Of a stretch of 64,000 nucleotides of DNA, positions 1,008-40,627 are shown piece by piece. A model generated the notes under the pieces. The model did not search any database. It was not told the origin of the DNA and was given only the letters and a program-made list of their open reading frames with translations. The stretch is taken from assembly GCF_014931565.1 (NCBI RefSeq), contig NZ_CP063353.1, forward strand, positions 2,356,001 to 2,420,000, read 5' to 3'. Positions within the stretch are counted from its first letter, which is position 1, and the number at the start of each line of letters is the position of its first letter. Both the position numbers and the translations under genes were made by a program. This DNA comes from Clostridium sp. 'deep sea' (GTDB lineage Bacteria > Bacillota > UBA994 > PWPR01).

Positions 1008-1706
1008 TTATACAAAGCTCTTTAAACCCTCAATATCTATAATCTTTACGGTAGATTTATAGAAGTCTATTAAACCCTCATCTCTCATTCTGCCCATTTC
1101 ACGAGACATTGAGGGTCGTGAAACATTTAGGTAGTCTGCTAGTTCATTTCGTTTTAGTGGTAATTCAAAGGTATTTTTTAGGCATTTGTTATATTGCTCT
1201 AATATATAAGTACTTAGTTTAACTCTCATGCTTTTTATGGTTAAATACTCTACTTGCTTATTGAGTTTTAGTGCTCTCATAGAGGTTATTTTAAGCATGT
1301 TTTGAATCATTTGTTTATGCCATGGGCAAACTTTATCACACTCGCCTATTATTTTGGTTTTAGATAAAAAGAAAACTGTACAATCTTTTTGTGCCTGCAC
1401 AGTTGCAGGCCACTTGCTTTTTTCCGAAAATACTACCATTTCACCAAACATATCACTTGGTTTAAGGGTCATCATAATTACTCTGTTTCCAGCGGCATTT
1501 TCTTTTATAACTATTGCTTCACCTTTTAGAATAATCCCTAACTCTTTAAAGGTATCTCCTGCCATTGTAATAAAATCATATTTTTTAAAGTGTTCTATAC
1601 GTGGTTTTAAACAACTAACCATACCATGAATATTATAAGGCTCTATATCGCTAAATAAAGTTGCTTTTTCAAGTACTTTAGAGTATAACTCAATTATTTT
1701 AACCAC
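1008..1706 (-). CDS. Crp/Fnr family transcriptional regulator
   Basis: The protein has 232 residues. Residues 15-140 form a cyclic-nucleotide-binding-like beta barrel (GDTFKELGIILKGEA, then MTLKPSDMFGEMVVF). Residues 165-225 form a winged helix with the Crp-type recognition region (LADYLNVSRPSMSREMGR). The N-terminal four-cysteine cluster of true Fnr is absent, so an Fe-S oxygen sensor of that kind is unlikely. It is divergent from the ferredoxin/cupin/hcp genes and probably controls them, as HcpR-type regulators do for hcp (inference). The start is a GTG next to an AGAGG sequence. Spacing is tight, so the true start may be a few codons away. Confidence 0.85.
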   Translation of the reverse strand: MVKIIELYSKVLEKATLFSDIEPYNIHGMVSCLKPRIEHFKKYDFITMAGDTFKELGIILKGEAIVIKENAAGNRVIMMTLKPSDMFGEMVVFSEKSKWPATVQAQKDCTVFFLSKTKIIGECDKVCPWHKQMIQNMLKITSMRALKLNKQVEYLTIKSMRVKLSTYILEQYNKCLKNTFELPLKRNELADYLNVSRPSMSREMGRMRDEGLIDFYKSTVKIIDIEGLKSFV

Positions 1707-1717
1707 CTCTTACACTT

Positions 1718-1733
1718 GGTAGCTATAGCTACC
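1718..1733. promoter_or_regulatory. Perfect 16-bp palindrome upstream of the Crp/Fnr gene
   Basis: GGTAGCTATAGCTACC lies 12 bp upstream of the regulator start, in its 5' leader. It may be an operator for autoregulation. The binding protein is unknown. Confidence 0.4.
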
Positions 1734-1778
1734 GATTAGCTACTATTATTATATTATACTAACAGTAACAACACAACC

Positions 1779-1799
1779 TTGAGATTACTCAACGTAATT
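1779..1799. promoter_or_regulatory. Fnr-like dyad (TTGAG-N4-CTCAA) with overlapping ATTAC-N5-GTAAT dyad
   Basis: TTGAGATTACTCAA at 1779-1792 has the layout of a Crp/Fnr half-site pair and lies 46 bp upstream of the ferredoxin gene. A second dyad, ATTAC...GTAAT, overlaps it. A related sequence occurs at 3063-3078 before hcp. A role as target of the divergent regulator is inferred. Confidence 0.5.
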
Positions 1800-1838
1800 G
1801 ACCTAAAAATATGACTATTCCTTAATGGAGGTATAAAT

Positions 1839-2552
1839 ATGAAAAGAAAGATTATTCAAATTGATGAAGCTAAGTGTAATGGCTGTGGTTTATGTGTAGA
1901 TGCCTGTCACGAGGGTGCTTTGCAAATGATAAATGGCAAAGCCAAGCTTATATCCGACTCTTATTGTGATGGTTTAGGTGATTGTTTGCCCGAATGTCCT
2001 ACCGGAGCAATTAAAATAATTGAACGTGAAGCTGCTGAATTTGATGTTGAGGCTGTTAAAGCTAATATGAAGAAAAAAGCAGCTACAAAAATACCCCATA
2101 ATGGTGGTGGCTGCCCTGGATCTAAAGCTATGATGTTAGCTAAAAAAGAGGCTACCCCTACTGCACCTGCACAGCTTAAGCCAACTTCTCAATTACAACA
2201 ATGGCCTGTGCAAATTAAATTAGTGCCTGTTAATGCCCCTTATTTTAATAATGCTAGTTTGCTAGTTGCTGCTGATTGTACTGCATTTGCATATGCAAAT
2301 ATTCACCAAGATTTTATGAGAAATAAAATTACTATTATTGGCTGCCCTAAGCTCGATGCTATGGACTATAGCGAAAAGTTAACAGCAATTATAAGCAATA
2401 ATAATATTAAAAACATAACTGTTTTAAGAATGGAAGTGCCTTGCTGTGGCGGTATGGAACATGCTGTGAAAAAAGCATTAATAAATAGTGGTAAAATGCT
2501 ACCTTGGCAAGTTGTTACTATAACCTCAGAAGGAAATATAAAAGAGAATTAG
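1839..2552 (+). CDS. 4Fe-4S ferredoxin-type protein linked to hcp
   Basis: The protein has 237 residues. The N-terminus carries two cysteine clusters (CNGCGLCVDACHEGA at about 14-28 and CDGLGDCLPECPTGA at about 43-57) for [4Fe-4S] centres. A low-complexity linker follows. The C-terminal part (about 125-230) contains CTAFAYANIHQDF, GCPKLD and EVPCCGGM, seen in iron-sulfur proteins that accompany hybrid cluster protein in Clostridia. It is probably an electron donor to Hcp (inference from context). The RBS GGAGG precedes the ATG. The cupin and hcp genes follow on the same strand. Confidence 0.85.
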   Translation: MKRKIIQIDEAKCNGCGLCVDACHEGALQMINGKAKLISDSYCDGLGDCLPECPTGAIKIIEREAAEFDVEAVKANMKKKAATKIPHNGGGCPGSKAMMLAKKEATPTAPAQLKPTSQLQQWPVQIKLVPVNAPYFNNASLLVAADCTAFAYANIHQDFMRNKITIIGCPKLDAMDYSEKLTAIISNNNIKNITVLRMEVPCCGGMEHAVKKALINSGKMLPWQVVTITSEGNIKEN

Positions 2553-2561
2553 AACTCGCTC

Positions 2562-2610
2562 TTGGTGATATATGTTTGGGTAATTTATTATTGCCCAAAC
2601 TCTGCACCAA
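2562..2610 (+). promoter_or_regulatory. Long stem-loop between the ferredoxin and cupin genes
   Basis: TTGGTG...CACCAA encloses a second stem, GTTTGGGTAA / TTGCCCAAAC. No clear U-run follows, so it may be an intercistronic structure or a weak terminator. Confidence 0.4.
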
Positions 2611-2665
2611 AGTAATTTGGCTTTAAGGATTATGAATCCATTAATAAATAATAGGAGGTATTGTA

Positions 2666-2989
2666 ATGGTAGAGAAGCTTTATAACTTTACGCTAGAAAA
2701 AGGTAAAAAGTTAATTGAGAGAGTTATTAGTGATAATAATGCTGACATAAACCATGCAGTTTTACCTAACGGCGAATGTTTACCAGAACACTATTCAAAT
2801 TCACATGTGTACTTAATTGTTGTTAAAGGAACAATTACCTTACAACTAAACGATCAAGACTCTCATAGCTACCCTACAGGTAGTATAGTTAATATTCCTT
2901 ACAAAACAAAAATGAATGTAAGCAATGCTCATAGTGAAGTATTAGAGTTTTTTATTGTAAAGGCACCAAGTCCAAAGAGCTTTAATTAA
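2666..2989 (+). CDS. Cupin domain protein
   Basis: A single small cupin of 107 residues: LPNGECLPEHYSNSHVYLIVVKG is the first cupin motif, followed by a beta-rich second half with the PTGSIVNIPY turn. The second-motif histidine is replaced (IPYKTKMNVSNAHSEV), so metal binding is uncertain. A strong RBS (AGGAGG) precedes the ATG. It lies between the ferredoxin and hcp genes and probably shares their control. Substrate unknown. Confidence 0.75.
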   Translation: MVEKLYNFTLEKGKKLIERVISDNNADINHAVLPNGECLPEHYSNSHVYLIVVKGTITLQLNDQDSHSYPTGSIVNIPYKTKMNVSNAHSEVLEFFIVKAPSPKSFN

Positions 2990-3062
2990 AACTGTGATGT
3001 ACAGAGCAACAAAGTGATTTTTTTTAACAGTAATTATTAGTAACAAAATAACAGTACTAAAA

Positions 3063-3078
3063 TTTACTCAATATAATT
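3063..3078. promoter_or_regulatory. Possible second regulator site upstream of hcp
   Basis: TTTACTCAATATAATT matches 13 of 16 positions of ATTACTCAACGTAATT at 1784-1799. It lies close to the hcp RBS, so repression or coincidence are both possible. Confidence 0.3.
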
Positions 3079-3092
3079 CTGGAGGTTTTTAA

Positions 3093-4661
3093 ATGGACAA
3101 TAATATGTTTTGTTTTCAGTGTGAACAAACTGTAAACGGTAAAGGTTGTACCAAAGTAGGCGTTTGTGGTAAACAAGCAAGTACAGCTAATTTACAAGAC
3201 GAGTTAACAGGGTCATTAGTTGGTTTAGCAAGGGCGACATATGAAAAAGAGACTAGCAAAACTGCTAATGAGTTAATGATGCAGAGTTTATTTGCTACTA
3301 TCACCAATGTTAATTTTGATGACGAGCGAATTAAAGAGCTAATTCGGCTAGTTAGAGAAGAAAAAAGCAATTATGGAGACGCCCAAGATTTAGCGCCAGA
3401 GGCTTTATGGCAAGGCAACGAAGATGTGGTTTCTTTACGTTCAACTCTGTTACTTGGTATGAGAGGAATGGCTGCATACGCTTGGCATGCCTATATTTTA
3501 GGACATGAAGACACAGAAGTAACTGCTTGGTTCTTTAAAGGTATGAAAGCCTTAGCTGAAGAACACACCGTTGAAGAATGGCTTGGATTATTAATGGAGT
3601 TTGGTCATATTAATCTCAAATGTATGGGTTTATTAGATACAGCTAATACCTCAACCTATGGCCACCCAGTTCCTACTCAGGTAACTACTAATGTTGAAAA
3701 AGGTCCTTTCATTGTAATTACCGGACACGATCTACACGATTTAAAAATGTTACTTGAGCAAACAGAGGGTAAAGGAATTAATATTTATACTCACGGTGAA
3801 ATGTTACCATCCCATGGTTATCCAGAGCTAAAAAAGTATAGCCACTTAAAGGGCAACTATGGTACTGCTTGGCAAAATCAGCAAAAGGAATTTGATAATT
3901 TGCCTGCACCGATTTTATTTACCACAAACTGCTTAATGAGACCCCGTATTAGTTATCAAGACAGAGTGTTTACTACAGATGTAGTGGGTTATCCGGAACT
4001 AATTCACATTAATAAAGAAAATAACGGGCATAAAGACTTTACGCTTGTTATTAACAAAGCTTTAGAGCTTGGTGGTTTTAGTGAGGATACCCAGTTTACA
4101 GGTATAAATGGTGGCTCTGTTTTAACAACAGGTTTTGGGCACAGTACTGTATTAGGTGTAGCCGACAAGGTTATTAGTGCTGTAAAAGATGGAGCAATAA
4201 AGCACTTTTTCTTAGTTGGTGGTTGTGACGGTGCTAAACCTGGTAGAAACTATTACACAGATTTTGTTAAACAAACACCAAATGATTCTATAGTTTTAAC
4301 ACTAGCCTGTGGTAAATTTCGATTTAACGATTTAGACATTGGTGAAATTGGTGGACTACCTCGCATTATGGATATGGGTCAGTGTAACGATGCTTACTCG
4401 GCAATTCAGGTGGCAGTTGCTTTATCTAAAGCCTTTGAGTGTGATGTAAATGAACTACCATTAACCCTTGTTTTATCTTGGTACGAGCAAAAAGCGGTAT
4501 GTATTTTGTTATCTTTGCTTGCTCTTGGTATTAAAAATATATACATTGGTCCCACGTTGCCTGCATTTTTCTCCTCTAATGTACTAGATGTGTTGGTATC
4601 GATGTTTGACTTACACCCTATAACTACCCCAGAGCAAGATTTACAAACAATATTGGGCTAA
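3093..4661 (+). CDS. hcp: Hydroxylamine reductase / hybrid cluster protein
   Basis: The protein has 522 residues, close to the family length. The N-terminal cysteines C7, C10, C19 and C25 (CFQCEQT, GCTKVGVCG) bind the cubane cluster. The C-terminal half has the hybrid-cluster ligands, including GGCDGAKPGRNYY and ACGKFRFN. Hcp reduces nitric oxide and hydroxylamine and is used by anaerobes against nitrosative stress. The RBS GGAGG precedes the ATG. Likely electron donor: the ferredoxin-like protein two genes upstream. A hairpin terminator follows. Confidence 0.96.
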   Translation: MDNNMFCFQCEQTVNGKGCTKVGVCGKQASTANLQDELTGSLVGLARATYEKETSKTANELMMQSLFATITNVNFDDERIKELIRLVREEKSNYGDAQDLAPEALWQGNEDVVSLRSTLLLGMRGMAAYAWHAYILGHEDTEVTAWFFKGMKALAEEHTVEEWLGLLMEFGHINLKCMGLLDTANTSTYGHPVPTQVTTNVEKGPFIVITGHDLHDLKMLLEQTEGKGINIYTHGEMLPSHGYPELKKYSHLKGNYGTAWQNQQKEFDNLPAPILFTTNCLMRPRISYQDRVFTTDVVGYPELIHINKENNGHKDFTLVINKALELGGFSEDTQFTGINGGSVLTTGFGHSTVLGVADKVISAVKDGAIKHFFLVGGCDGAKPGRNYYTDFVKQTPNDSIVLTLACGKFRFNDLDIGEIGGLPRIMDMGQCNDAYSAIQVAVALSKAFECDVNELPLTLVLSWYEQKAVCILLSLLALGIKNIYIGPTLPAFFSSNVLDVLVSMFDLHPITTPEQDLQTILG

Positions 4662-4680
4662 CCCCCTTTTACCCCGAATT

Positions 4681-4705
4681 GGAGCCAGAAATGGCTCCTT
4701 TTTTT
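4681..4705 (+). terminator. Terminator of hcp
   Basis: GGAGCC-AGAAAT-GGCTCC is followed by seven T. Confidence 0.85.
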
Positions 4706-4747
4706 GTGGCTATAAGTCACTTTATAAGAATTTTGAAAATTAAAAGG

Positions 4748-4773
4748 GTAGCCTTAATTTACTATAAGGCTAC
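4748..4773 (-). terminator. Terminator of the desulfoferrodoxin gene
   Basis: The stem GTAGCCTTA / TAAGGCTAC lies just past the minus-strand stop and is followed there by CCCTTTTAATTTT. Confidence 0.65.
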
Positions 4774-4803
4774 TCCTATGTATTTAAATTAACTTTTTTA
4801 CTA

Positions 4804-5181
4804 TTAAGCCTTCCACAAACCATGTAAATTGCAGTATGCTCTTACCTGTTTAACTTCTTTAGGGCACACATTAAAATATGCTTCTGGCTTATCATTAGGT
4901 TTTAATTCTGCTCTTAATACTTTATTTTCTGTTAAAACTTCTATAAAGTTAATACTATGCTCCTCAGTCATGGGGTGATTAATGCTACCTACACAAACAT
5001 GTATGCCATTATCTTTTTCTGTTACTACAGGTACATGTTTTTCTAAACCTGTATCACTGTTTTTAGCCTCAAGTTTTTGCATTGGTTTACCACAACATAC
5101 TAAAGCAGGAGCGCCTTCATGTACAACCTCTGTTACATTTTTGCAAATAGAGCAGTAATATAGTTCTCTCAATTTAGTCAT
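4804..5181 (-). CDS. dfx: Desulfoferrodoxin (superoxide reductase)
   Basis: The protein has 125 residues. The N-terminal desulforedoxin-like domain has C10, C13, C29 and C30 for a rubredoxin-type iron. The C-terminal neelaredoxin domain has the iron ligands H49, H69, H75, C117 and H120. It reduces superoxide to peroxide in the cytoplasm without making oxygen, as is usual in anaerobes. RBS (AGGAGG) and ATG are clear. It is monocistronic, next to hcp, giving a small oxidative/nitrosative defence cluster. Confidence 0.95.
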   Translation of the reverse strand: MTKLRELYYCSICKNVTEVVHEGAPALVCCGKPMQKLEAKNSDTGLEKHVPVVTEKDNGIHVCVGSINHPMTEEHSINFIEVLTENKVLRAELKPNDKPEAYFNVCPKEVKQVRAYCNLHGLWKA

Positions 5182-5345: not shown

Positions 5346-6203
5346 TTATTGCTGATTTTTGCATAAATCTTGTTTGGTTTTAAAACCCGAACTCAAAGCC
5401 CCAGTTGGGCAAACATTAACACAATCTCCACAGCGTATACACTCTGCACTTGTTGTTGTTTTAGTAATATCTATATTCATTTTACAAGCTCTAACACAGG
5501 CCCCACAAGAGGTACAAGAGCTTTTATTATAGTTAATTTGGTATAGAGATATTTTATTAAATAAGGCATAAATAGCACCTAACGGGCACACGGTATAACA
5601 GAACGGCCTAAAAATTATAATGGAAGCTACAATAGTTATTATTAATAGAGCTATTTTCCAAGTAAATAAAAAGCCTGTTATTGCCTGCAATTGGGTATTA
5701 GTTGCCACTAATGGTATACCTGCCTCAAGTGTTCCTGCTGGGCAGAGATACTTGCAAAAAGCAGGCGCCCCAAGCCCTACAAAGTCAACAACTAAGGCGG
5801 GTAGTAAGATAACAAATATAATTAATATTAGGTATTTACCAAAACGCAAAAAGCTGTTTTTACTTGTCCATTTTAGTTTTGGGGTTTTAATTTTATATAG
5901 AAGCTCCTGAATTAAACCAAACGGACACAGCCAGCCACAAATAAACCTACCAGCTATTGCTCCGAAAAGCGCTACTAGGCCAAGTACATAATATGATATT
6001 TGATACCGTATTGAACCTATAACCGCCTGCAGGGCACCAATAGGGCAAGAACCTAAAGCACCGGGGCATGAATAACAGTTTAGCCCCGGCACACATATTT
6101 TTTTTATTATACCCTGATAAATAGTACCCGTAAAAAAGCCTTTGATGTTTAGGTTGGTAATTAAGGCCGTAATTAGTTGAACAAATTTTCTTTTATTAAC
6201 CAA
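5346..6203 (-). CDS. Membrane 4Fe-4S protein (NapH/MauN-like)
   Basis: The protein has several transmembrane segments. Cysteine motifs typical of NapH-type proteins are CGWLCPFG in a membrane loop, then two ferredoxin clusters near the C-terminus (CTSCGACVRACKMN and CIRCGDCVNVCPTGA). It probably passes electrons across the membrane to extracytoplasmic thiol-redox partners. I place the start at a TTG that overlaps the stop of the preceding CXXC gene (GGAG ten bases upstream). An in-frame GTG at 6260 would add 19 residues read from inside the CXXC gene. It is the last gene of the pump / selenothioredoxin operon. Confidence 0.85.
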   Translation of the reverse strand: MVNKRKFVQLITALITNLNIKGFFTGTIYQGIIKKICVPGLNCYSCPGALGSCPIGALQAVIGSIRYQISYYVLGLVALFGAIAGRFICGWLCPFGLIQELLYKIKTPKLKWTSKNSFLRFGKYLILIIFVILLPALVVDFVGLGAPAFCKYLCPAGTLEAGIPLVATNTQLQAITGFLFTWKIALLIITIVASIIIFRPFCYTVCPLGAIYALFNKISLYQINYNKSSCTSCGACVRACKMNIDITKTTTSAECIRCGDCVNVCPTGALSSGFKTKQDLCKNQQ

Positions 6204-6333
6204 TGCCAATACACTCCAAACATATATTAATGGCCTTTGTAAAAACCTCTTGCACTTCACCTCGGGTTATACCTACTGCAATAAACACTAAAGATACTAC
6301 AATAGTTATTTTAGCTATTCGCCTTTTATTCAT
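6196..6333 (-). CDS. Small CXXC membrane protein (CD1871A family)
   Basis: This is a 45-residue ORF. It begins MNKRRIAK, continues with one hydrophobic helix (about 8-24) and ends KAINICLECIGIG, the C-terminal CXXC signature of the CD1871A family. It starts one base after the stop of the selenothioredoxin gene and its stop overlaps the start of the 4Fe-4S membrane protein gene. This three-gene order (thioredoxin-like, CXXC peptide, 4Fe-4S membrane protein) recurs in Clostridia. It may relay electrons or thiols between its neighbours (inference). Confidence 0.85.
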   Translation of the reverse strand: MNKRRIAKITIVVSLVFIAVGITRGEVQEVFTKAINICLECIGIG

Positions 6334-6334
6334 A

Positions 6335-6856
6335 TTACTCAACTGCCTTTAACGCTATGTCTAAGAACTCTTTAAGGGCTTCTAGGTCTTTTTTACCAGA
6401 AAAATCTTCTCCAACAACCTTGCCTTCATTATCTACAAACATGGTGTAAGGTATATATTGTACCTTTTGATAGCTATTATATATTTCTTTATTACTGAGT
6501 ATATTTTTTGATTTAAAACCAGTTTCATTAACCACTTTTTTAGCCGAGCTGGCATTTTGTACATCGGTTAAAATACCTAAAATAGCAGTATTATCTGGCA
6601 ATTCTGCTTCTAGCTTTACGAGCTCAGGAAACTCCTGAATACACGATGGTCAACCTGTTCCCCATAAAAATACTAGTGTTACATCGTTATCTTTAAATAC
6701 CTCATTAGTAACTTCATTGCCATCTAAATCTGTTGTTGTAAACTCCGAAAAATCTGTTCCTAAAACTTCATTGTTTTTTTTATTACAAGCTGTTACCAAC
6801 ACTGTTATAGATAATAATATTATGGTTATTAACACTAATTTGCTTTTTTTCCGCAC
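6335..6856 (-). CDS. Selenocysteine-containing thioredoxin/TlpA-like lipoprotein
   Basis: Two adjacent ORFs join in frame through a TGA at 6650-6652, giving 173 residues with Sec at 69. The N-terminus is a lipoprotein signal (lipobox LVTAC, Cys24). A TlpA/AhpC-type fold follows (DLDGNEVT, VTLVFLWGTG), then the active site U69-P-S-C72 where relatives have CxxC, and the cis-proline region YIPYTMFVDNEGKVV. The protein is probably anchored outside the membrane as a thiol oxidoreductase. The start is GTG with a GAGGTG RBS. It lies 28 bp after the RND pump gene and one base before the CXXC gene. A SECIS-like hairpin follows the TGA. A nonsense mutation is the alternative but fits less well. Confidence 0.88.
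6623..6639 (-). promoter_or_regulatory. SECIS-like hairpin for Sec69
   Basis: In the mRNA, UUCAGGA-GUU-UCCUGAG forms seven pairs with a GUU apical loop, 17 nt after the UGA. This distance is close to that of the known E. coli fdhF element. The element lies inside the coding region, as in other bacteria. Confidence 0.7.
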
Positions 6857-6884: not shown

Positions 6885-9800
6885 CTACACTCTCTTCTGT
6901 TTTTTCAAGATTTTTTTCAGTCTTTTTTCAAGCATACTGTATACTACAGGAACAACAACTAAGGTTAATACTGTAGAAACTAGTAAACCAAACATAAGTG
7001 AAATAGACATAGGTCCAAATAAATCACTACCCGAGAATAGTAAAGGTATCATACCAATAAAGGTTGTTGTAGTGCTTAGGATTATTGGTCTAAAGCGTTT
7101 ATTGGTTGCTTTTAAACAAGCCTGCTGAATTGGCTCACCTTCACTGCGGGCTCTATTAATGTAGTCTATTAACACTATAGCATTATTTACTACTATTCCC
7201 ATTAAGCTTATCATACCCATAAGCGCAGTAAAGCTTAAAGGATGTCGAGTTAGGTATAATCCACATATTGAGCCTATTGCCGATAAAGGTATTGTTAATA
7301 AAATAATAAAAGGTTGTCTAAACGATCTAAACTGAAATAGCAGTATTAAATAAACCATTAAAACTGCAAATACACCCTGTTTACCCATATCACCAAAGTT
7401 CTCTTTAATTTTGGCTTGTTCACCATCATAGCTCACCTGAACACCTAATAAATTTACTTCATTAAGTTTATCATTTAATACTTTAACTATATCTTTGGCT
7501 TCATAACCATTTAGCAAGTCACTTGCAACTACAATTGCGTAGTCTCGGTCGTACCTATACAACCCAGGAATAGTTGCAAGTGGTTGAGGCTCTGCCACAT
7601 TTTTTAGCAGTGTTTTTTTATTAGTGTTATCTACATTTACGTTATATTCATACATTCTATCTGGAAAATTGTTGTTGCTTTTAATTTTTATATTAAAGTC
7701 CTCACCACGATACCTTAGTGTTGAAGCAATTCTACCTCTTAAAGCAATGCTGACTTCGTTTTGAATATCGTACTTAGTTAAGCCCATATAGGCAGCTTTA
7801 TCGTTATCTACATTTACGTTATATTCATACATTCTATCTGGAAAATTGTCGTTTACATTGGTGACCCCAGGTATACTGTATAGCTGTTGTTTTACTATTT
7901 CGGCCGCAGACTCTAATTGGGCTAAATTATCACCTGTGAGCCTTACTTGAACAGGGTTACCAATATATTCAGCCAATTCTAATCTTCTTACAGTGGCCTT
8001 GCCACCCATTACTTTTTCATCTATTTTACGCTGTAATTCCTCAAGTAATTGACTATAATCGTCAAATTCTCCTTCACTCAAGTCAACTTTCATGAGTATT
8101 TGAGCAGTACTAGCTGATTTTTTATAGTTAAATACTGTTGTATAAAACTTTGGTAAACCCCCACCCAAAGAGGTTGTGTATTGTAGAATTTCTTTTTGAT
8201 CCTTAATTATTTCTTCTATTTGATCTGTTACTTGTTTAGTAGTTTCAATATTTATGTTTCTTTCGGCCTCTATATCTATAAACATAAGGTCTTTATCTGC
8301 AAATGGGAAAAACTGCAAGTGTAGTTGCATTACCAATATCCCTGCTCCAATAATCATTACAAAAGCCAAAACAACAGTCATTTTTTTATTTTTCATGGCG
8401 CGTGCTAATAGTTTATCAAAAAAGCCTCTCACAATTTTAGATTTATCGTGTTTTTGCTCGCTTGGCTTAAAGAATATATACGCCATTGTGGGTGTTACAA
8501 ATAAAGCAATTATATAAGATGCAGTTAATGAGGTTATGATGATTTTAGGTAAAGTAATCATAAACTCACCTGCTATAGAGTCCATTAATAAAAAAGGTGA
8601 AAAAGCTGCAATTGTTGTTAAGGTTGAAGTTAAAACTGGTATAGCTACCTCTTTAACACCATTAACACATGCATTTAATTTTTCTTCTCCATCATCTAAT
8701 CTATTTTGAATAGCATCACTAACTACTATGGCATTATCCACTAACATACCTAAGGCTATTATTAAGGAGGCTATGGATATGGTATGCAGTTCTACGCCTG
8801 TCATAATCATGACCCCAAAGGTTACCAAAATAGATAGCGGTATAGCAGTAGATACTATAATGGCATTTCTTAAACCCATGCCAAAGAAAACTACTGCAAT
8901 TACAAATAAAATGCCCTGCAATAAGCTCATAGCAAAGTTATTAACAGATTTTTTTACATCATAGGGTTGATCTAAAACTTTGTCTACTGTAACTCCTTCT
9001 GGTAGATTACTAATAAAGTCGCTTACAACAGTTTCTACATTTTTACCTGTTAAAACTATGTTAGTTCCCTTTTGAAAAAATCCAGTAAGCAAAATAGCAT
9101 TTTGACCATTATGTTTAACCCTATACATATCATCTGAGATCTTTAAACTAATATCTGCTATGTCTGAAAGCCTTAAAACTGTTCCATTATTTGTTGATAT
9201 GCCAACAACAATAGCTTTTATATCCTCTAATGAAGAGAATGTACCATCTGTTTTAACATTAAGGGTACTCGATCCATCTGTAATGGTACCCGATGGAATT
9301 TCAATATTTTGTCCCCTTATTAAGTTTAATATATCATTTAAAGATAAGTTATATTGGTTTAAGAGCTTGTAATCTATATCAATAATAACCTCTTTATCTT
9401 GTTTTCCTTCTATTTCAAAACGGGTCATGCCCTTTATTTTGCTTAACTGGCGTGACAAATCCTCGGCATAGGTGTTTAACTCTTCATAAGAATAGTTTTC
9501 ACCAGTAAGGGCTAATATCATGCCTGCTGTTTCCATAATATCGGTATCAATGTCTATTGTTTGACACTCTGTAGGCAACTCTTTTTGCACATCTTCCATT
9601 TTACGCCTTAATTCATCCCAGGTTTTTGTGGTATCAATACCAAAGTCCATACGTAAGAGTATAAAGGCATAACTATTGTAAATATAAGACTGGGCATAAT
9701 CATAACCCTCTAGTTCCACGAGCTCTTTTTCAATTTTATCTACTACAAGCCTATCAATATCTGCTGGAGTAGCCCCTGGATAAACGGCTGTTATTACAGC

Positions 9801-9935
9801 AACTGGAGCTGGTACGTCGGGCATTTCGTTACGAGGTAACATATAATAACTATACATACCTGCTAGGGCTATTATTCCTACAAGAAAAAGGCTGATTTTT
9901 CGGTATTTTATAACGTTCTTTAATAATTTACTCAT
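6885..9935 (-). CDS. RND family efflux pump (AcrB/MdtB-like inner membrane transporter)
   Basis: The protein has 1016 residues with the two-fold RND layout. A first transmembrane helix (about 13-31) is followed by a periplasmic-type domain, a block of membrane helices (about 330-540) with the proton-relay segment GMLVDNAIVVSDAI, a second extracytoplasmic domain and a last helix block (about 840-1005, GIVVNNAIVLIDYI). It uses the proton gradient to expel drugs, lipids or metabolites. The membrane fusion protein gene is 14 bp upstream. Oddity: an exact 47-bp direct repeat puts a second copy of NNFPDRMYEYNVNVDN into the second extracytoplasmic domain. No outer-membrane partner is seen. Confidence 0.93.
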   Translation of the reverse strand: MSKLLKNVIKYRKISLFLVGIIALAGMYSYYMLPRNEMPDVPAPVAVITAVYPGATPADIDRLVVDKIEKELVELEGYDYAQSYIYNSYAFILLRMDFGIDTTKTWDELRRKMEDVQKELPTECQTIDIDTDIMETAGMILALTGENYSYEELNTYAEDLSRQLSKIKGMTRFEIEGKQDKEVIIDIDYKLLNQYNLSLNDILNLIRGQNIEIPSGTITDGSSTLNVKTDGTFSSLEDIKAIVVGISTNNGTVLRLSDIADISLKISDDMYRVKHNGQNAILLTGFFQKGTNIVLTGKNVETVVSDFISNLPEGVTVDKVLDQPYDVKKSVNNFAMSLLQGILFVIAVVFFGMGLRNAIIVSTAIPLSILVTFGVMIMTGVELHTISIASLIIALGMLVDNAIVVSDAIQNRLDDGEEKLNACVNGVKEVAIPVLTSTLTTIAAFSPFLLMDSIAGEFMITLPKIIITSLTASYIIALFVTPTMAYIFFKPSEQKHDKSKIVRGFFDKLLARAMKNKKMTVVLAFVMIIGAGILVMQLHLQFFPFADKDLMFIDIEAERNINIETTKQVTDQIEEIIKDQKEILQYTTSLGGGLPKFYTTVFNYKKSASTAQILMKVDLSEGEFDDYSQLLEELQRKIDEKVMGGKATVRRLELAEYIGNPVQVRLTGDNLAQLESAAEIVKQQLYSIPGVTNVNDNFPDRMYEYNVNVDNDKAAYMGLTKYDIQNEVSIALRGRIASTLRYRGEDFNIKIKSNNNFPDRMYEYNVNVDNTNKKTLLKNVAEPQPLATIPGLYRYDRDYAIVVASDLLNGYEAKDIVKVLNDKLNEVNLLGVQVSYDGEQAKIKENFGDMGKQGVFAVLMVYLILLFQFRSFRQPFIILLTIPLSAIGSICGLYLTRHPLSFTALMGMISLMGIVVNNAIVLIDYINRARSEGEPIQQACLKATNKRFRPIILSTTTTFIGMIPLLFSGSDLFGPMSISLMFGLLVSTVLTLVVVPVVYSMLEKRLKKILKKQKRV
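7626..7672 (-). repeat. 47-bp exact direct repeat inside the RND gene, downstream copy
   Basis: Identical to 7803-7849. It encodes a second DRMYEYNVNVDN at a position where RND relatives normally have unrelated sequence. The offset of 177 bp (59 codons) keeps the frame. Confidence 0.85.
7803..7849 (-). repeat. 47-bp exact direct repeat inside the RND gene, upstream copy
   Basis: Identical to 7626-7672. This copy fits the family sequence at this position and is probably the original. Confidence 0.85.
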
Positions 9936-9949
9936 CGTAATAAGCCCCC

Positions 9950-11155
9950 TTACTCGCTTACTACTTTAACTTTATCGCCGGGTTTAACTTGACCTGAGTT
10001 GGCTATTACCAACCTATCGCCTTCGGCCAAGCCGTCTACTAAAACCTTACTGCCACGTGTTTCTAGTAGAGTTATAGAACGACGCTCTATTTTATCTTCA
10101 TTTACTATATACACAAAGTCTTCTCCCGAAAACATAATTTTATCTAGTGGTATCCAAATGCCCTCAAACTCACCTACTATAATTTTTACCTCGGCAACCA
10201 TACCCAGCCTAAACTTACCCTCTAATAAGGCTATTTCGGTGTCATAAGTACGGGTGTCACTATTAGGCATTTCAGATATCATTGTAACTACACCATCAAC
10301 AGTTTCTTCTCCAATTTTCACTTTAGTTTTATCCCCTACTTTAACCTCGTTTACATCTTGTTGAGATAAACCTACATTAACAACCTGATTTTCACTACGT
10401 ACTACTACTACCGGATAACCAGCGCCAACTATTTCACCAGCCTCAAATAATATTTCAGCTACATAACCACTAATACCCGAAACCAAAGTAGTTTCATTGT
10501 ACTGCTTTTTTTTGTGCTCATAGTTTGTTTTGGCCTGATTATACTGGGCACGAGCGGCATCTATATCCTCTTGACGAGCCCCTTTAATTGCTTGATTATA
10601 CAAACCTTGTGCTTGATCTAGGGTTGCTTTTTTTATGTCAACATCTAACTGAGCTCCTTCGTACTCACTCTGTGATACTCCACCAGCATTGTAAAGCTTT
10701 TCTATGCGTGCTAAGTTATCTTTAGAATAATTATAGGCATTCTCAGCTTTTTGGAGGTTTATTTTGGCATTGTTTTTATCTTCTTCAGAAGACCCTGCTA
10801 CAGCCTTATTATAAACAGCTTTGGCAGCATCCATTTGGGCTTTAGCCGCATTTACAGAAAGCTGTAAATCACTTTTATCTAAAGCTACTAATACTGTGCC
10901 GCCAATTACTTTGTCACCTTTTTGCACATTTATTGTTTGTAGCTTTCCACCTGTTTTAAAGCTGTATTTAACTAAATCATCGGCAACAATTGTGCCTACA
11001 TAGTTAAGAGTTTTATCTGTTTTTTCGTTTTGTAATGTTTTAACACTCACTGGCTGAATAACTGGATCCTTATCTACTATTTTATTTGTTTGGCATGCAG
11101 TTATCACACAAATACTAAGCACTATAATTATGAGTGTAGTTGCTAACTTCTTCAT
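9950..11155 (-). CDS. RND/HlyD-type periplasmic adaptor (membrane fusion) lipoprotein
   Basis: The protein has 401 residues with a lipoprotein signal (lipobox VITAC). It then has the barrel-sandwich/lipoyl half motif (GGKLQTINVQKGDKVIGG), a long alpha-helical hairpin (about 95-215), the second lipoyl half (VSGISGYVAEILFEAGEIV) and beta-barrel and membrane-proximal domains. It couples to the RND transporter encoded 14 bp downstream. It is the first gene of the five-gene minus-strand operon and divergent from tetR. Confidence 0.93.
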   Translation of the reverse strand: MKKLATTLIIIVLSICVITACQTNKIVDKDPVIQPVSVKTLQNEKTDKTLNYVGTIVADDLVKYSFKTGGKLQTINVQKGDKVIGGTVLVALDKSDLQLSVNAAKAQMDAAKAVYNKAVAGSSEEDKNNAKINLQKAENAYNYSKDNLARIEKLYNAGGVSQSEYEGAQLDVDIKKATLDQAQGLYNQAIKGARQEDIDAARAQYNQAKTNYEHKKKQYNETTLVSGISGYVAEILFEAGEIVGAGYPVVVVRSENQVVNVGLSQQDVNEVKVGDKTKVKIGEETVDGVVTMISEMPNSDTRTYDTEIALLEGKFRLGMVAEVKIIVGEFEGIWIPLDKIMFSGEDFVYIVNEDKIERRSITLLETRGSKVLVDGLAEGDRLVIANSGQVKPGDKVKVVSE

Positions 11156-11543: not shown

Positions 11544-12128
11544 ATGTCTGAAAAAATTGATTTGAGGGTAATAAAAACTAAGCGAGCTTTGAAAAAAGCC
11601 ATGATTGAATTAATGAAAAAGCAAAAGTTTGAGGATATAAAAGTTAAACATATTGCAGACGAAGCCTTAGTAAATAGGGCTACCTTCTATTATCATTTCA
11701 AAGATAAATATGATTTATTATATAAGATTTTAGATGATGAGTTAAATAATTTAGAGAAAATGGCAGATGACTTAGTTACTCAAGAGGAGTTAAAAACTAA
11801 GCCAATGATTGCCATACTTCATATGTTAAAATATTTTGAAAAAAATTCTTTATATTATAAAAATGCCTTTGAAACAGAGGGTTATGAATCACTTAGCGTT
11901 TACCTAAAAAAAAGGGTAGAAGAGTTACTTTTACTATGGGTAGAAAGACTCAATTTAAAAGAAGACCCCTTGGTTCCTGCCAAGATTTTATGTAATTGTT
12001 ACAGCGCTGCTTTCTCCTATTTGGCTATGGATTGGCTAAAAACAGAAAATAGAGAACCACCAGAGCAAGCTTATCATTATATAAAAAATATTATTGAAAA
12101 AGGTTTTTTTGCTTGTTTAAAAGTGTAG
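11544..12128 (+). CDS. TetR/AcrR family transcriptional regulator
   Basis: The protein has 194 residues. The N-terminal TetR helix-turn-helix (about 10-56) includes KVKHIADEALVNRATFYYHFKDKYDLL. The helical C-terminal ligand domain resembles the TetR_C group of Firmicute regulators. The RBS ACAGGAGG precedes the ATG. It is divergent from the efflux operon and most likely represses it until the pump substrate binds (inference from arrangement). Confidence 0.9.
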   Translation: MSEKIDLRVIKTKRALKKAMIELMKKQKFEDIKVKHIADEALVNRATFYYHFKDKYDLLYKILDDELNNLEKMADDLVTQEELKTKPMIAILHMLKYFEKNSLYYKNAFETEGYESLSVYLKKRVEELLLLWVERLNLKEDPLVPAKILCNCYSAAFSYLAMDWLKTENREPPEQAYHYIKNIIEKGFFACLKV

Positions 12129-32103: not shown

Positions 32104-32390
32104 AACCCGTCTCTTTGTAAGAGACGGGTTATATTCCCGTGGTACCACTCTTGTTTCAAATATGACTAAACAAAGCCATATTCAACACTTAGCAGGATAC
32201 TATCATATCCCCTTCCTGATAACGGTGGAATACCGTTTACCTTACTTATAGTTCAGGTGCAAGCTCAAGGGTGATGTTTTGTTAAGTAGGAAGTACCGGT
32301 TTCCACCTTATCCGGCTCTCTGTAACTATACTTCAAAAAACGAAATCCCTATCACAGCTGTGATTACTTTATTGCTTAAATTTAATAAGC
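32104..32390 (-). promoter_or_regulatory. T-box riboswitch 1, specifier AUC (Ile)
   Basis: The T-box sequence AAGAGTGGTACCACGGG lies at 32136-32152 and the terminator AACCCGTCTC/GAGACGGGTT at 32104-32130. Stem I has AGAGAGCCGG and the downstream lower helix AGGG/CCCU. The specifier loop reads AAC-AUC-A directly before CCCU-UGAGC, and the upper helix pairs UACUU and AACAA with the opposite strand. Uncharged tRNA-Ile should favour antitermination into binding protein 1 and oppDFBC. Confidence 0.9.
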
Positions 32391-32419
32391 ACTATACCAT
32401 GACGTGTTACCTCCGTCAA
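32391..32419 (-). promoter_or_regulatory. Promoter of T-box 1 with inverted repeat in the spacer
   Basis: TTGACG, 17-bp spacer, TATAGT. TGACG...CGTCA arms (32400-32418) lie in and around the -35 element and spacer, as at T-boxes 2 and 3. Confidence 0.75.
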
Positions 32420-32547
32420 GGCTTTTTTAAAAATTTCTCAATATTTTATGAATATTTATACACTTGAATGTATATTATGCAATTTAAATCCTATATCTTG
32501 TTGTTATATACCGTTTTTTGGTAAAAAAATAATAGGCCCTATGAATA

Positions 32548-34104
32548 CTACTGAATATTTTTCCAACTAGCTTCGTATACCCTAATAGACTCATCAGGTC
32601 GTGGTTGCCAGTTTATTCTATTGCTAACTCCATATAAATCTACCTGTTGATAGAGATTTACAAAGGTAGCATCGTTATATATTTTATTAGTAATTTGCTG
32701 ATAAATGTTTATTCTATCCTGCTCGTTTATTTCAGTTAAAGCCTGCTTTATTAATTGATTTAGTTCATCATTTGTTTGTTTATCAGTTTGGTAATAACAA
32801 GTTTTGAGTGACGAATTTAACCAAAAGTTAAGGGTGTTACCAGCATCAAAGGTACTACTTCCCCAACCAATTAACCAGATATCATACTTAAGTTCTCCAG
32901 CAAAAAGTTCTGCTACATAATTACCCCATTCAGGAAAACTCAATTCAACCTCAAATCCAACCTGCTCTAACTGATTTTTAATGGCCTCCGCCACTTCTTT
33001 ATCCATAATATATCTGCCTGTAGGTGCACCCATTGTTATTTTAAGACCCTGTTCATAACCAGCCTCTTTTAAAAGCTGTTTAGCCTTTTCAGGGTTATAT
33101 CCATAGGGTTTTAGGTCTCTATTAAAGCCTAAATCATAACTACCAACTGGCTGAGAACTGGGTTTAGCATTGCCAGAAAATATATTATCAATAATGCTAT
33201 TAACATCTATTGCATAGTTAAGGGCTTGCCTAACTTTTAAGTCCTTCATTTTTTCATTACGGGTAGTTATGGGTAGCATGATAAACCTTACACTATCCAC
33301 TTGCTCTACACTGGCTTTTTCACTATTATTTATTTGCTCCACCTGATGAGGTGGAACATTCACTATGATATCGGCTTCACCTTTTTGCAAGGCCATAATC
33401 CGAGATGCCGCCTCGGGTACTGGCTTAAATTTTATGTTTTGAATTTTAGGTTTTCCTTGCCAGTAGTTCTCATTAGCAGTGAAAAGTACGTATTCGTCTT
33501 TTATCCACTCTTTAAGTTTATAAGGTCCACTGCCGATAGGTTTTAAACTAAATTGCTGGTTTCCAACCTCTTTAATATAATGTTCTGGCACTATTCTGAG
33601 CGAAGCTAAACGGGTTAATAATAATGGATAAGGCTCTGTTGTTTTAATGGTTAAATTATAATCTCCATTAGTTTCAATGGCCTTAACCGCTTTATAGTCT
33701 CCTATTTTTGAGCTCTTATTGTTGGGGTCTAAAATTCTTTCTATTGAAAACTTTACATCCTTAGTCGTTAGTTGTTTACCATCATGAAAGTAGATATCAT
33801 CACGTAATTCAAACTGCCATGTTGTATCATTTAACATTTTCCAAGACTTTGCAACTAAGGGTATGATCTTCATCTCTGTATCTTGGTCTAAAAAGGTATC
33901 AAATAGCTGTTTTTCTATATTTGCTGTAGGCCCTTCGGAATGCATGCCAGGATCCAGAGTTGTAGCATCTACCCCTTGTAAAATTATCAATGTATCATTT
34001 TCATTAGTTGTTGCTTGATTTTTGCCACAACCAGAGCCCGCTATCGCTATTGCTATTAGTAAAATTATTAAACTTATTCTTTTGGTAAAAGTTGATTTCA
34101 TCAT
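32548..34104 (-). CDS. Peptide-binding lipoprotein 2 (Val T-box), family 5 SBP
   Basis: The protein has 518 residues with a lipoprotein signal (lipobox AGSGC) and the same family 5 fold and motifs as its four paralogues (ILQGVDATTLDPGMHSE, PVPEAASRIMALQKGEAD, WLIGWGSSTFDAGNT). No permease gene is attached. The next element downstream is the promoter of T-box 1, so the protein must use permeases encoded elsewhere, most likely those of the two flanking opp operons. Its leader has a GUC (Val) specifier. A short ORF overlaps its first 100 bases. Confidence 0.92.
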   Translation of the reverse strand: MMKSTFTKRISLIILLIAIAIAGSGCGKNQATTNENDTLIILQGVDATTLDPGMHSEGPTANIEKQLFDTFLDQDTEMKIIPLVAKSWKMLNDTTWQFELRDDIYFHDGKQLTTKDVKFSIERILDPNNKSSKIGDYKAVKAIETNGDYNLTIKTTEPYPLLLTRLASLRIVPEHYIKEVGNQQFSLKPIGSGPYKLKEWIKDEYVLFTANENYWQGKPKIQNIKFKPVPEAASRIMALQKGEADIIVNVPPHQVEQINNSEKASVEQVDSVRFIMLPITTRNEKMKDLKVRQALNYAIDVNSIIDNIFSGNAKPSSQPVGSYDLGFNRDLKPYGYNPEKAKQLLKEAGYEQGLKITMGAPTGRYIMDKEVAEAIKNQLEQVGFEVELSFPEWGNYVAELFAGELKYDIWLIGWGSSTFDAGNTLNFWLNSSLKTCYYQTDKQTNDELNQLIKQALTEINEQDRINIYQQITNKIYNDATFVNLYQQVDLYGVSNRINWQPRPDESIRVYEASWKNIQ

Positions 34105-34225
34105 TTAGATAACCTCCGTATTTTTGGGCAGTTATGTTGATATTATTTAAGGCAACTTTATTTTTAAAGACGCCCTGGAAATACACCATAAAAGCTGAAA
34201 AAACGTTAATTAGGTATTTCTCCAT
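34004..34225 (-). CDS. Upstream ORF overlapping binding protein 2
   Basis: A 73-codon ORF begins MEKYLINVF. It has a strong RBS (AGGGAGGTG) between the T-box 2 terminator and the SBP start and overlaps the SBP in another frame. Val codons occur at positions 8, 14, 19 and 24. It could be a translated leader that modulates SBP translation, or chance. Part of its downstream half is simply the out-of-frame SBP signal-peptide region. Confidence 0.35.
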   Translation of the reverse strand: MEKYLINVFSAFMVYFQGVFKNKVALNNINITAQKYGGYLNDEINFYQKNKFNNFTNSNSDSGLWLWQKSSNN

Positions 34226-34320
34226 GATTTTCACCTCCCTTTACATACTAAATTAGTATGTCTTGCGCTTGTTTTATTAAAGTGATTAACTTAAATCACT
34301 AAATAATCTTAAAAAACAAA

Positions 34321-34602
34321 AAACTCGTCTCTTAATAATAATAGAGACGAGTTTAAACCCGTGGTACCACTCTTTTTCTGTATGTAAAAAAAACACACAG
34401 CACTTAGCAGGATACAATCATATCCTCTTCCTTGTAACGGTGGAAAAACCGCTCACCCTAATCTTATTTCAGGATCATAGCTCAGGGGCGACTTCGAAAG
34501 CTGTAGGTAGTACCGGCTCACACCAAACCCGGCTCTCTGTGACTTTACTGCTATCTACTATTCCCCATCGATGCTAATTTATTTTGCTTAAATTTATAAA
34601 GC
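34321..34602 (-). promoter_or_regulatory. T-box riboswitch 2, specifier GUC (Val)
   Basis: The T-box AGAGTGGTACCACGGG lies at 34358-34374, with the terminator stem ACTCGTCTC/GAGACGAGT at 34321-34354. Stem I has AGAGAGCCGGG. The specifier loop is GAA-GUC-G, directly followed by CCCC (pairing with GGGG) and UGAGC. The opposite loop strand is AATAGTA. It responds to uncharged tRNA-Val by inference. Confidence 0.9.
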
Positions 34603-34631
34603 AATATACCATGACGTGTTACCGCCGTCAA
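34603..34631 (-). promoter_or_regulatory. Promoter of T-box 2 with inverted repeat in the spacer
   Basis: TTGACG, 17-bp spacer, TATATT. TGACG/CGTCA arms at 34612-34630. Confidence 0.75.
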
Positions 34632-34699
34632 GTTTTTTTTAAGAGTTTTTTTATCTTTTAGCACAAAACAACCTAATATTATCCTTATACAACCATAAT

Positions 34700-36241
34700 T
34701 TACCTAAATGATGCCTCATATAAACGAATACTTTCATCAGGACGGGCTTTCCAATTAAGTCTACTACTGACCCCATACAAATCTACCTGCTGATAAAGAT
34801 TAACAAAACCAATATCGTTATTAACCTGTTTAATTATCTCCTGATAAGCTTTTTCACGCTGCTCATCATCAACAGTTTTTAGTGCCTTATTTAACAGGTT
34901 ATTTATTTTGTTATTAACTTGCTCATTTATTCGATAATAACAAGTATCATGCTCTGAATTAACCCAAAAATCCAGGGTGCTTCCAGCATCAAAGGTACTA
35001 TTACCCCAGCCAATAAGCCATAAATCGTAGTTGATTGTGCCAGCTAAAATTTGGCTTACATAGTTGCCCCACTCTGTAAATGTTAGCTTAACTTTTATGC
35101 CAACTTCTTCGAGTTGAGCTTTTATTGCTTCGGCTACTTCTTTGTCCATCATATATCTGCCAGATGGAGATCCCATTGTAATAGCTATTCCTTTTTCATA
35201 ACCAGCCTCTTTAAGCAATTGTTTAGCTTTTTCAGGATTATAACTAAGGGGCTTAAGGTTATTGTTGTACCCAAGGTCATAGCTAGCAATAGGCTGAGTG
35301 TTGGCTGTAGCTTTACCTGCAAATATATTTTGAATAATTGAGTTTACATCAATAGCATAGCTAATCGCTTCACGTACTTTTTTATTGTTAACTACTTCGT
35401 TTTTGGTGGTAAAGGGTAACATAATAAATCTAGAACTAGCTACCTCTTCAATCTTAGTATTTTTATTTTCCTCAATACTAGCTATTTGGTGAGGTGGTAA
35501 ATTTATAATTATATCAGCCTCACCCTTTTGCAATGCCATCACCCTTGCTGCCGCCTCTGGCACTGGCTTAAATACAAGCTCTTTAATTTCTGCTGCACCT
35601 AACCAATAGTCTTCATTTGCCTCTAAAGCAACGTACTCATCTTTTACCCATTCTTTTAGTTTATAGGGACCTGAACCAATTGGATTTAAGGCAAACTGCT
35701 GATTACCAACCTCTTTTACATAATGCTCTGGTACAATTCTTAGCCCTGCTAGTCTTGTTAACAAGAGCGGATAGGGGTTCTCTGTTTTGATTGTAACGGT
35801 GTATTGATCTACTACCTCAACACTGCTTATAGCACTATAGTTACTTAGCTGAGAACTTTTATTAGCTTTGTTAAGAATTCTATCAATAGAAAATTTAACA
35901 TCACTTGCAGTTAGCTGATCTCCATTATGGAACTTAATGTTTTCATGTAGTTTAAACTGCCATGTTGTTTCATTAATCATTTTATAACTCTTAGCTAGCC
36001 AAGGCTCAATTTTCATATCACTTGTTTGGTTTAACAAGGTATCATATATTTGACGTTCTATATTGCCAGTTGGTGTTTCTGAGTGCATTGCAGGATCTAA
36101 GGTTGTTGCATCTACTCCTTGCAGAACTGTTAAAGGTTTAGTTTCACTACTAGTATTGTTTGCAGTACATGCACTTGTTACTATTGCGGTAATTATTATG
36201 ATAATTATCGTTGCATATTTGGTAAAAGGAATTTTGGTCAT
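34700..36241 (-). CDS. Peptide-binding lipoprotein 3 (Leu T-box), family 5 SBP
   Basis: The protein has 513 residues with a lipoprotein signal (VTSAC) and the shared motifs VLQGVDATTLDPAMHSE, PVPEAAARVMALQKGEAD, MDKEVAEAI and WLIGWGNSTFDAGST. The RBS AAGGAG precedes the ATG. No permease gene follows. The leader has a CUC (Leu) specifier, suggesting induction by leucine shortage and uptake of Leu-containing peptides (inference). Confidence 0.92.
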   Translation of the reverse strand: MTKIPFTKYATIIIIIITAIVTSACTANNTSSETKPLTVLQGVDATTLDPAMHSETPTGNIERQIYDTLLNQTSDMKIEPWLAKSYKMINETTWQFKLHENIKFHNGDQLTASDVKFSIDRILNKANKSSQLSNYSAISSVEVVDQYTVTIKTENPYPLLLTRLAGLRIVPEHYVKEVGNQQFALNPIGSGPYKLKEWVKDEYVALEANEDYWLGAAEIKELVFKPVPEAAARVMALQKGEADIIINLPPHQIASIEENKNTKIEEVASSRFIMLPFTTKNEVVNNKKVREAISYAIDVNSIIQNIFAGKATANTQPIASYDLGYNNNLKPLSYNPEKAKQLLKEAGYEKGIAITMGSPSGRYMMDKEVAEAIKAQLEEVGIKVKLTFTEWGNYVSQILAGTINYDLWLIGWGNSTFDAGSTLDFWVNSEHDTCYYRINEQVNNKINNLLNKALKTVDDEQREKAYQEIIKQVNNDIGFVNLYQQVDLYGVSSRLNWKARPDESIRLYEASFR

Positions 36242-36320
36242 TTAGGGTATCTCCTTTAGATTTATTTGTTAATTTAGCTGTATTGTTATATTTAAGTTTT
36301 AAACCTAAGTCACTTTCCAT
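36150..36320 (-). CDS. Upstream ORF overlapping binding protein 3
   Basis: A 56-codon ORF begins MESDLGLKLKY after GGGGGTGATGGTC, between the T-box 3 terminator and the SBP, and overlaps the SBP start out of frame by 92 bases. Leu codons stand at positions 5, 7 and 9, matching the Leu specifier of this module. The MESD start recurs before binding protein 5. Leader-peptide function is speculative. Confidence 0.35.
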   Translation of the reverse strand: MESDLGLKLKYNNTAKLTNKSKGDTLNDQNSFYQICNDNYHNNYRNSNKCMYCKQY

Positions 36321-36407
36321 GACCATCACCCCCTTTTTTTCTAGGATTAATTCAAACAGGTTAACTAGCGCTGATTTTTTTGGCCTATATTTTCAGCTTT
36401 TAAATAC

Positions 36408-36682
36408 AAAAAACCCGTCTCTATATAAATTAAGAGACGAGTATTTTCCCGTGGTACCACTCTTTTTCCTAGTATAACACTAAGCACTTAGTAGGATACA
36501 ATCATATCCCCTTCCTGTTAACGGTGGAAATCCGTTTACCCTACTTTGTTCAGGTTCAGGCTCAAGAGTGAGTTCGTTTGTTGTATAGTACTGGGTTACA
36601 CCAAGCCCCAGCTCTCTGTAACTCTACTTCAAACTACTAATCCCTATCATAGCCTTTTTGCTTTTGCTTAAATTTAATATGC
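36408..36682 (-). promoter_or_regulatory. T-box riboswitch 3, specifier CUC (Leu)
   Basis: The T-box AGAGTGGTACCACGGG lies at about 36448-36463 and the terminator stem at 36411-36443. Stem I has AGAGAGCUGGGG. The upper helix GUUUG/CAAAC and lower helix AGGG/CUCU bracket a canonical specifier loop GAA-CUC-A opposite ATTAGTA. This is the clearest of the five specifier loops and sets the register for the others. Confidence 0.93.
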
Positions 36683-36712
36683 AATATACCATGACTGAAG
36701 TACCGCAGTCAA
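36683..36712 (-). promoter_or_regulatory. Promoter of T-box 3 with inverted repeat in the spacer
   Basis: TTGACT, 18-bp spacer, TATATT. The TGACTG/CAGTCA arms at 36692-36711 differ from those of modules 1 and 2 by a compensating change (G/C to T/A). Confidence 0.75.
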
Positions 36713-36731
36713 GTTCTTTTTTGTTGAGTGT

Positions 36732-38267: not shown

Positions 38268-38346
38268 AAGTAACTCCTAAAAATATTTACAATTACTCAA
38301 TAAGCTTAAAAATAAGAGATTAACTAAATAGCCCTCATAGTAATAA

Positions 38347-38440
38347 AAAATCTGCCTCTTAATAAGAGGCAGATTTTATCCACGGTACCACTCTTGTTTC
38401 CTAATATTATTAGAATCTCAGTAGGATACAATTATTGCTA
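38347..38440 (-). promoter_or_regulatory. Truncated T-box 4a (antiterminator and terminator only)
   Basis: The T-box AGAGTGGTACCGTGG at about 38380-38395 is followed by the terminator stem ATCTGCCTC/GAGGCAGAT. No Stem I or specifier loop precedes it. It lies between full T-box 4b and binding protein 4 on the same transcript. Confidence 0.8.
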
Positions 38441-38490
38441 AACATGAGTTTTACCAAAGCCTTTTTATTAAAGAATTTATTATATAAACA

Positions 38491-38766
38491 AAAAAACCGC
38501 CTCTTAATTAAGAGACGGTTATTATATACCGTGGTACCACTCTTGTTCCTCACATCAAATAATGATGTTCAGCACTTTGTTAGATACAATCATATCCACT
38601 TCCCTATAACGGAGGAATCCCGTTTGCCCTACTTTTATTTCAAGCTTAAGCTCAAGGAGGAATTCACATAAAGCATTCACCACTGGATCTCACCATCCCA
38701 GCTCTCTTTAGGCTATTCTTTAAGCTACTAGTTCCTGTCAACGCCTTGGTTATTGTATTAGCCAAA
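38491..38766 (-). promoter_or_regulatory. T-box riboswitch 4b, specifier UUC (Phe)
   Basis: The T-box AGAGTGGTACCACGG lies at about 38529-38543 and the terminator at 38491-38520. Stem I has AGAGAGCUGGG. The lower helix AGGA/UCCU and upper helix (GCUUAAAG with CUUUAUGU, one mismatch) bracket GAA-UUC-C opposite ACTAGTA. The base after the specifier is C rather than the usual purine, a small deviation. Confidence 0.87.
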
Positions 38767-38795
38767 ACTATAACACGGTAATTTTTTTAAGTCAA
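38767..38795 (-). promoter_or_regulatory. Promoter of T-box 4
   Basis: TTGACT, 17-bp spacer, TATAGT. The spacer inverted repeat of modules 1-3 is absent. Confidence 0.72.
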
Positions 38796-38809
38796 GTTTT
38801 TTTTATAGA

Positions 38810-40360: not shown

Positions 40361-40466
40361 AGCTCTGGCCTCCTAAACCCTTACACTTATATTTATTATT
40401 TTTAATAGTGATATTATTACTTAGTTTATTAAATTTATTGTTATTATAATAATAATCGGATTCCAT
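40332..40466 (-). CDS. Upstream ORF (Tyr-rich start) overlapping binding protein 5
   Basis: A 44-codon ORF begins MESDYYYNNNKF after AAAGGAGAG, between the T-box 5a terminator and the SBP, and overlaps the SBP start by 29 bases. Three consecutive Tyr codons match the Tyr specifier of this module. A role as leader peptide is a hypothesis. The composition is also what AT-rich non-coding DNA can give. Confidence 0.4.
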   Translation of the reverse strand: MESDYYYNNNKFNKLSNNITIKNNKYKCKGLGGQSYENIKNKKT

Positions 40467-40493
40467 ATAATCACTCTCCTTTGCTTTAAAACA

Positions 40494-40600: not shown

Positions 40601-40627
40601 GGTGGAAAATTGCTTTTTGATAATAAA

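Follow-up and report, generated by a model that had tools for sequence, protein, structure and literature searches.

A selenocysteine-containing TlpA-like lipoprotein and a putative ferredoxin-type reducing route beside it in Clostridium sp. 'deep sea'

The 64,000-nucleotide stretch of DNA analysed here (the window) carries on its minus strand a gene for a TlpA/ResA-like lipoprotein of 173 amino acids (6335..6856) in which an in-frame UGA (6650..6652) is, judging from sequence, near-certainly read as selenocysteine (Sec) at residue 69, the position of the first active-site Cys. The explanation that we favour, and consider reasonably probable as a whole, is that the product is an exported, lipid-anchored thioredoxin of the TlpA/ResA type with Sec as its attacking residue, and that it would act as a reductase outside the cytoplasm, receiving electrons from a NapH-like 4Fe-4S membrane protein by way of a small CD1871A-family membrane protein, in place of CcdA. 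More tentatively, a ferredoxin-type transmembrane route of this kind (NapH-like protein to CD1871A to TlpA) may stand in for CcdA/DsbD across anaerobic Bacillota-type bacteria, its TlpA having acquired Sec at least twice independently.

Selenocysteine at the active site of a TlpA-like lipoprotein

The minus-strand frame running from a GTG start at 6856 to a TAA at 6335 holds a single in-frame TGA (6652-6650), located correctly by the original prediction at the first active-site Cys of a TlpA-like protein. With the TGA read as Sec, the frame encodes a protein with the motif WGTG-U-PSC (VRKKSK...LLSITVLVTAC...TLVFLWGTG-U-PSCIQEFPELVKL...); without it, the frame breaks into ORFs of 68 and 88 amino acids. 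The sequence AGAGGTGA is read immediately upstream of the GTG. As such, the gene has what is expected of a bacterial selenoprotein: coding sequence flanks an in-frame UGA that takes the place of a redox Cys, and a hairpin with GU in its loop follows closely, as in a SECIS element. Specifically, the hairpin UUCAGGA[GUU]UCCUGAG (6623..6639, minus strand) starts 10 nt past the UGA and places its loop 17 nt from it; the seven pairs and GUU loop that had been predicted are indeed there, one of the pairs being U.G.

Taken alone, the window hairpin is only suggestive. When 16,834 codons from long open frames across the window were examined, 1.5% had a comparable GU-loop hairpin at the same distance, and when the peptide was resampled with synonymous codons, one as good arose in 2.6% of cases. 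This chance background is what favours reading the TGA as a true stop, or as a sequencing or pseudogene artefact, with no Sec at all; that reading is nevertheless very improbable. The hairpin becomes strong evidence because both of the window-family relatives compared, G001 (51% identical) and G002 (38% identical), keep it along with the TGA at the identical codon, and they keep the operon as well. The hairpins are UUCAGG[AGUUG]CCUGAA in G001 and UACAGG[AGUUG]CCUGUA in G002, where one U-A pair has become A-U, a compensatory change whose 3' side brings an amino-acid change from E to V. Downstream of the TGA, the window protein and that of G001 are identical at 58 of 104 residues, and 72 of their 129 base differences fall at third positions, so protein-level constraint continues past the TGA. 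That three species whose proteins are 38-51% identical all keep the TGA, and that the sequence beyond it is still constrained as coding, argues against a stop or artefact, as do the TGA at the identical codon in 16 further genomes (see below) and the presence of Sec machinery in this genome.

The machinery had been named as a check by the original prediction, and all of it was found. The genome, a single contig of 3.83 Mb, encodes selA (613 bits), an adjoining selB (391 bits), a tRNA-Sec with anticodon UCA (75.9 bits against RF01852) and a selD (L010, G000:C1:2714069-2714989) that has an in-frame TGA of its own (KGGG-U-SSK) and is itself a selenoprotein gene. Relatives with a Trp or a gap at the codon were to have spoken against Sec; in the first alignment, the 27 rows without Sec all have Cys in this column, and none has Trp or a gap. 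A reading of UGA as Trp was rejected because relatives have Cys here and tRNA-Sec(UCA) is present.

The assignment as a thioredoxin-type lipoprotein is likewise supported, by the lipobox LVTAC and by the fold family. Among Pfam domains, AhpC-TSA and Redoxin score best, alongside Thioredoxin_8, and the relatives of solved structure include ResA-type and streptococcal thioredoxin-family proteins (PDB 4nmu, 2yp6, 4hqz). The redoxin domain, with its motif at the CxxC position and a cis-Pro region (YIPYTMF), places the protein among TlpA/ResA-like exported thioredoxins. Read by eye, the export anchor is LVTAC in the window protein, LVAC in G002 and, in G001, no more than a hydrophobic N-terminus, the protein there missing a clear lipobox. 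The AlphaFold model is weak (pLDDT 57). NCBIfam models place neither this protein nor four relatives above a cut-off; for the window protein, scores were 54 against 170 bits for ResA (NF002854) and 39 against 210 bits for StoA (NF041202). Membership in SaoT was rejected, NF040730 giving no match among matches up to E 0.01.

A three-gene module with apparently recurrent selenocysteine

The Sec-TlpA gene belongs to a module that also comprises genes for a CD1871A small CxxC membrane protein and a NapH-like 4Fe-4S membrane protein. In the window, both follow on the minus strand. The CD1871A-family protein (6196..6333; 45 aa) is identified by NCBIfam NF040920 (63.8 bits against a cut-off of 32) and consists of N-terminal positive charges, one hydrophobic segment, predicted from hydropathy to span the membrane, and a CxxC tail ending in CLECIGIG; by the positive-inside rule, the tail would lie outside the cell. 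The NapH-like protein (5346..6203, from a probable TTG start at 6203; the longest ORF begins at GTG 6260) is polytopic, with CxxxCP motifs and two Fer4 motifs, and scores below the curated NapH cut-offs (64 against 234 bits for NF007013; 77 against 213 bits for TIGR02163).

The three genes were found together in 13 loci with Cys and 19 with Sec, and their linkage is kept in many families in different gene orders. One example with Cys lies on a megaplasmid of Peptoclostridium acidaminophilum; the annotation there names a TlpA family protein, a CD1871A family protein and a 4Fe-4S binding protein, and an MFS gene intervenes. Two loci, L127 (G045) and L144 (G155), have the CD1871A and NapH-like genes and no TlpA in the DNA examined. 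A scan of genome contigs gave a homologue with Cys, L034, together with a single partial match.

Direct protein searches had made Sec appear confined to the window family, a limit of sensitivity that was overturned by using the NapH-like protein as query and reading the genes beside each match. In 16 more genomes from eight families (f3, f18, f23, f46, f62, f74, f80 and f87), a TlpA-like gene next to the CD1871A and NapH-like genes has TGA at the same codon (L125, L126, L128, L129, L131-L141 and L143); their TlpA proteins match at E values of 1e-17 to 1e-38 with a profile that included three of them. The original prediction of Sec in an exported thioredoxin-like lipoprotein is supported, while its description of the arrangement as uncommon was too strong for the TlpA group of this module, because Sec apparently recurs there. 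The prediction did not extend to the operon or to the CD1871A and NapH-like partners.

The SECIS-like structures of these loci are of another kind. In 14 of the 16, the second Cys is followed by LQLQP, encoded (C/T)TG CAG TTG CAG CC, and the RNA forms a near-invariant hairpin, GCUGC[AGUU]GCAGC, with 25 nt from UGA to loop; L126 has a variant of it and L125 a different structure. Under local codon usage, the log10 P of the LQLQP codon choices sums to -23.5 over loci taken as independent, a value that is overstated because some are close kin. The LQLQP peptide itself appears to reflect an insertion of four residues that accommodates the SECIS in those 14 loci. On the tree of NapH-like proteins, the window family (support 99/95) and a large Sec group (98/95, 15 rows) are not joined, the deep part of the tree being weak. 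Because hairpins and their positions differ and the Sec groups stay apart on this tree, two or more separate origins of Sec in the module are probable, as read from these sequences; a single origin followed by losses may also account for the pattern.

A possible replacement for CcdA

A search for DsbD_TM/CcdA (PF02683) found no match in this genome and was positive in 10 of 14 control genomes. CcdA scored above cut-off in none of three Sec-module genomes and four of 13 Cys-module genomes (4/16 in all), compared with 13 of 13 genomes in which the best TlpA is not a module member and CcdA often adjoins tlpA (Fisher 6e-5). Across 398 sampled genomes, CcdA was present in 9 of the 37 that have a close NapH-like protein (E <= 1e-75), as against 258 of the other 361 (Fisher 2.6e-8, uncorrected for phylogeny); the 37 represent 19 families, eight of which have a CcdA-bearing member.

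We propose that the module takes over the place of CcdA/DsbD. SelB would insert Sec at the TlpA UGA using the hairpin just downstream. The NapH-like protein would take low-potential electrons from cytoplasmic ferredoxin or a similar donor, its clusters would pass them to the CD1871A CxxC thiols on the outward-facing side of the membrane, and Sec-TlpA would hand them on to extracytoplasmic substrates. This path is proposed because CcdA is scarce in module genomes and the CD1871A tail is likely to lie outside; we infer the direction of the relay, the order of its partners and its substrate. In the window family, the most likely role is to repair envelope proteins reductively or to defend them against stress, the RND pump perhaps among them, since the module is co-encoded with such a pump and sits beside desulfoferrodoxin.

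Two other readings accept Sec as real. The protein might be a stand-alone, Prx-like peroxidase or reductase whose 4Fe-4S and CD1871A neighbours act elsewhere, a reading to which AhpC-TSA and Redoxin as best Pfam domains and the nearby desulfoferrodoxin, with its hint of oxidative stress, both point. We consider it unlikely: the linkage of TlpA, CD1871A and NapH-like genes across many families in varied orders, a UxxC motif whose second Cys is kept, as befits a disulfide reductase, and the scarcity of CcdA in module genomes all argue against it. Somewhat less likely again is a module that works as proposed and forms a redox branch of the RND pump, for example one in which a metal or xenobiotic is reduced and then exported. 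All three family members do have the adaptor, permease and Sec-TlpA genes in one operon, but the remaining module loci, whether Sec or Cys, have no RND genes, save a distant one (21% identity) near L046; the link being confined to the window family, the pump was rejected as a core partner and stands outside the central function of the module.

Known relatives and the surroundings of the operon

UxxC selenoproteins resembling TlpA have been described before. Those tabulated include a Prx-like thiol:disulfide oxidoreductase (PF00578), a thiol-disulfide isomerase-like protein (cd02966), a Redoxin-family protein (PF08534) and a UGC-containing TlpA (PMC13188914, Table 1), with further UxxC redoxin/TlpA-like examples in PMC9312934; like Sec-TlpA, they combine a TlpA/redoxin fold with Sec in the active site. 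SaoT (NF040730; PMC13188914) is also a thioredoxin-like UxxC selenoprotein, although the scanned neighbours match no Sao model. With TlpA, ResA, StoA and the pneumococcal Etrx1 and Etrx2 (PMC3914529), Sec-TlpA shares the thioredoxin-type fold family, a lipid anchor, an active site at the CxxC position and, likely, an extracytoplasmic reductase role; it differs in having Sec for the first Cys, NapH-like and CD1871A partners, and no CcdA in its genome. In the CcdA/DsbD-TlpA relay, as proposed for the module, an exported thioredoxin-like protein receives its reducing power from a membrane protein, whereas the module has a 4Fe-4S membrane protein unrelated to CcdA/DsbD, and CD1871A thiols would replace the CcdA cysteines. 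Likewise, the NapH-like protein resembles the membrane ferredoxins NapH/MauN, NosR and CcoG in its polytopic form and its CxxxCP and Fer4 motifs, but it falls below all NCBIfam cut-offs and is linked to TlpA rather than to Nap, Nos or Cco genes. A 4Fe-4S binding protein of C. difficile, linked in PMC13260099 with stress from oxidants and antibiotics, was not matched to the NapH-like gene.

In a search of limited literature, which is no proof of absence, neither the module with its repeated use of Sec nor anything on CD1871A was found described. The gene group is likely to be split at the UGA by routine annotation. With the module, it becomes directly testable by what means anaerobes that have no CcdA maintain their exported thiol proteins in the reduced state, and the apparently repeated switch to Sec, with different hairpins, suggests that the reaction gains from selenium chemistry.

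The gene order in the window family is RND adaptor, permease, the TlpA, CD1871A and NapH-like trio, then desulfoferrodoxin. In the window, these flanking genes, all on the minus strand, encode an RND periplasmic adaptor (membrane fusion) lipoprotein (9950..11155; TIGR01730, 159 bits), an RND-family efflux permease (6885..9935) and, downstream, a desulfoferrodoxin (superoxide reductase; 4804..5181; TIGR00320, 149 bits); a divergent TetR-family regulator on the plus strand (11544..12128) presumably controls the operon. In a consensus scan, the minus strand showed no convincing terminator from the RND genes to desulfoferrodoxin, where a single weak match lay within the NapH-like gene; a terminator-like hairpin was found after desulfoferrodoxin (4773-4748). 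Adjoining the operon (1008-5181) are genes for a Crp-like regulator, a ferredoxin-like protein, a hybrid-cluster protein (hydroxylamine reductase) and the desulfoferrodoxin, an oxidative/nitrosative stress neighbourhood that is also kept in G001. Farther along the window, the minus strand has five successive T-box leaders, about 2 kb apart (32117-40874). Finally, at a contig end of G001 (L044, 1-1800), a short unit that reads LHSTMVKYQ or IYIPLWLNIN depending on frame is repeated many times with unique spacers between, and is probably a CRISPR array.
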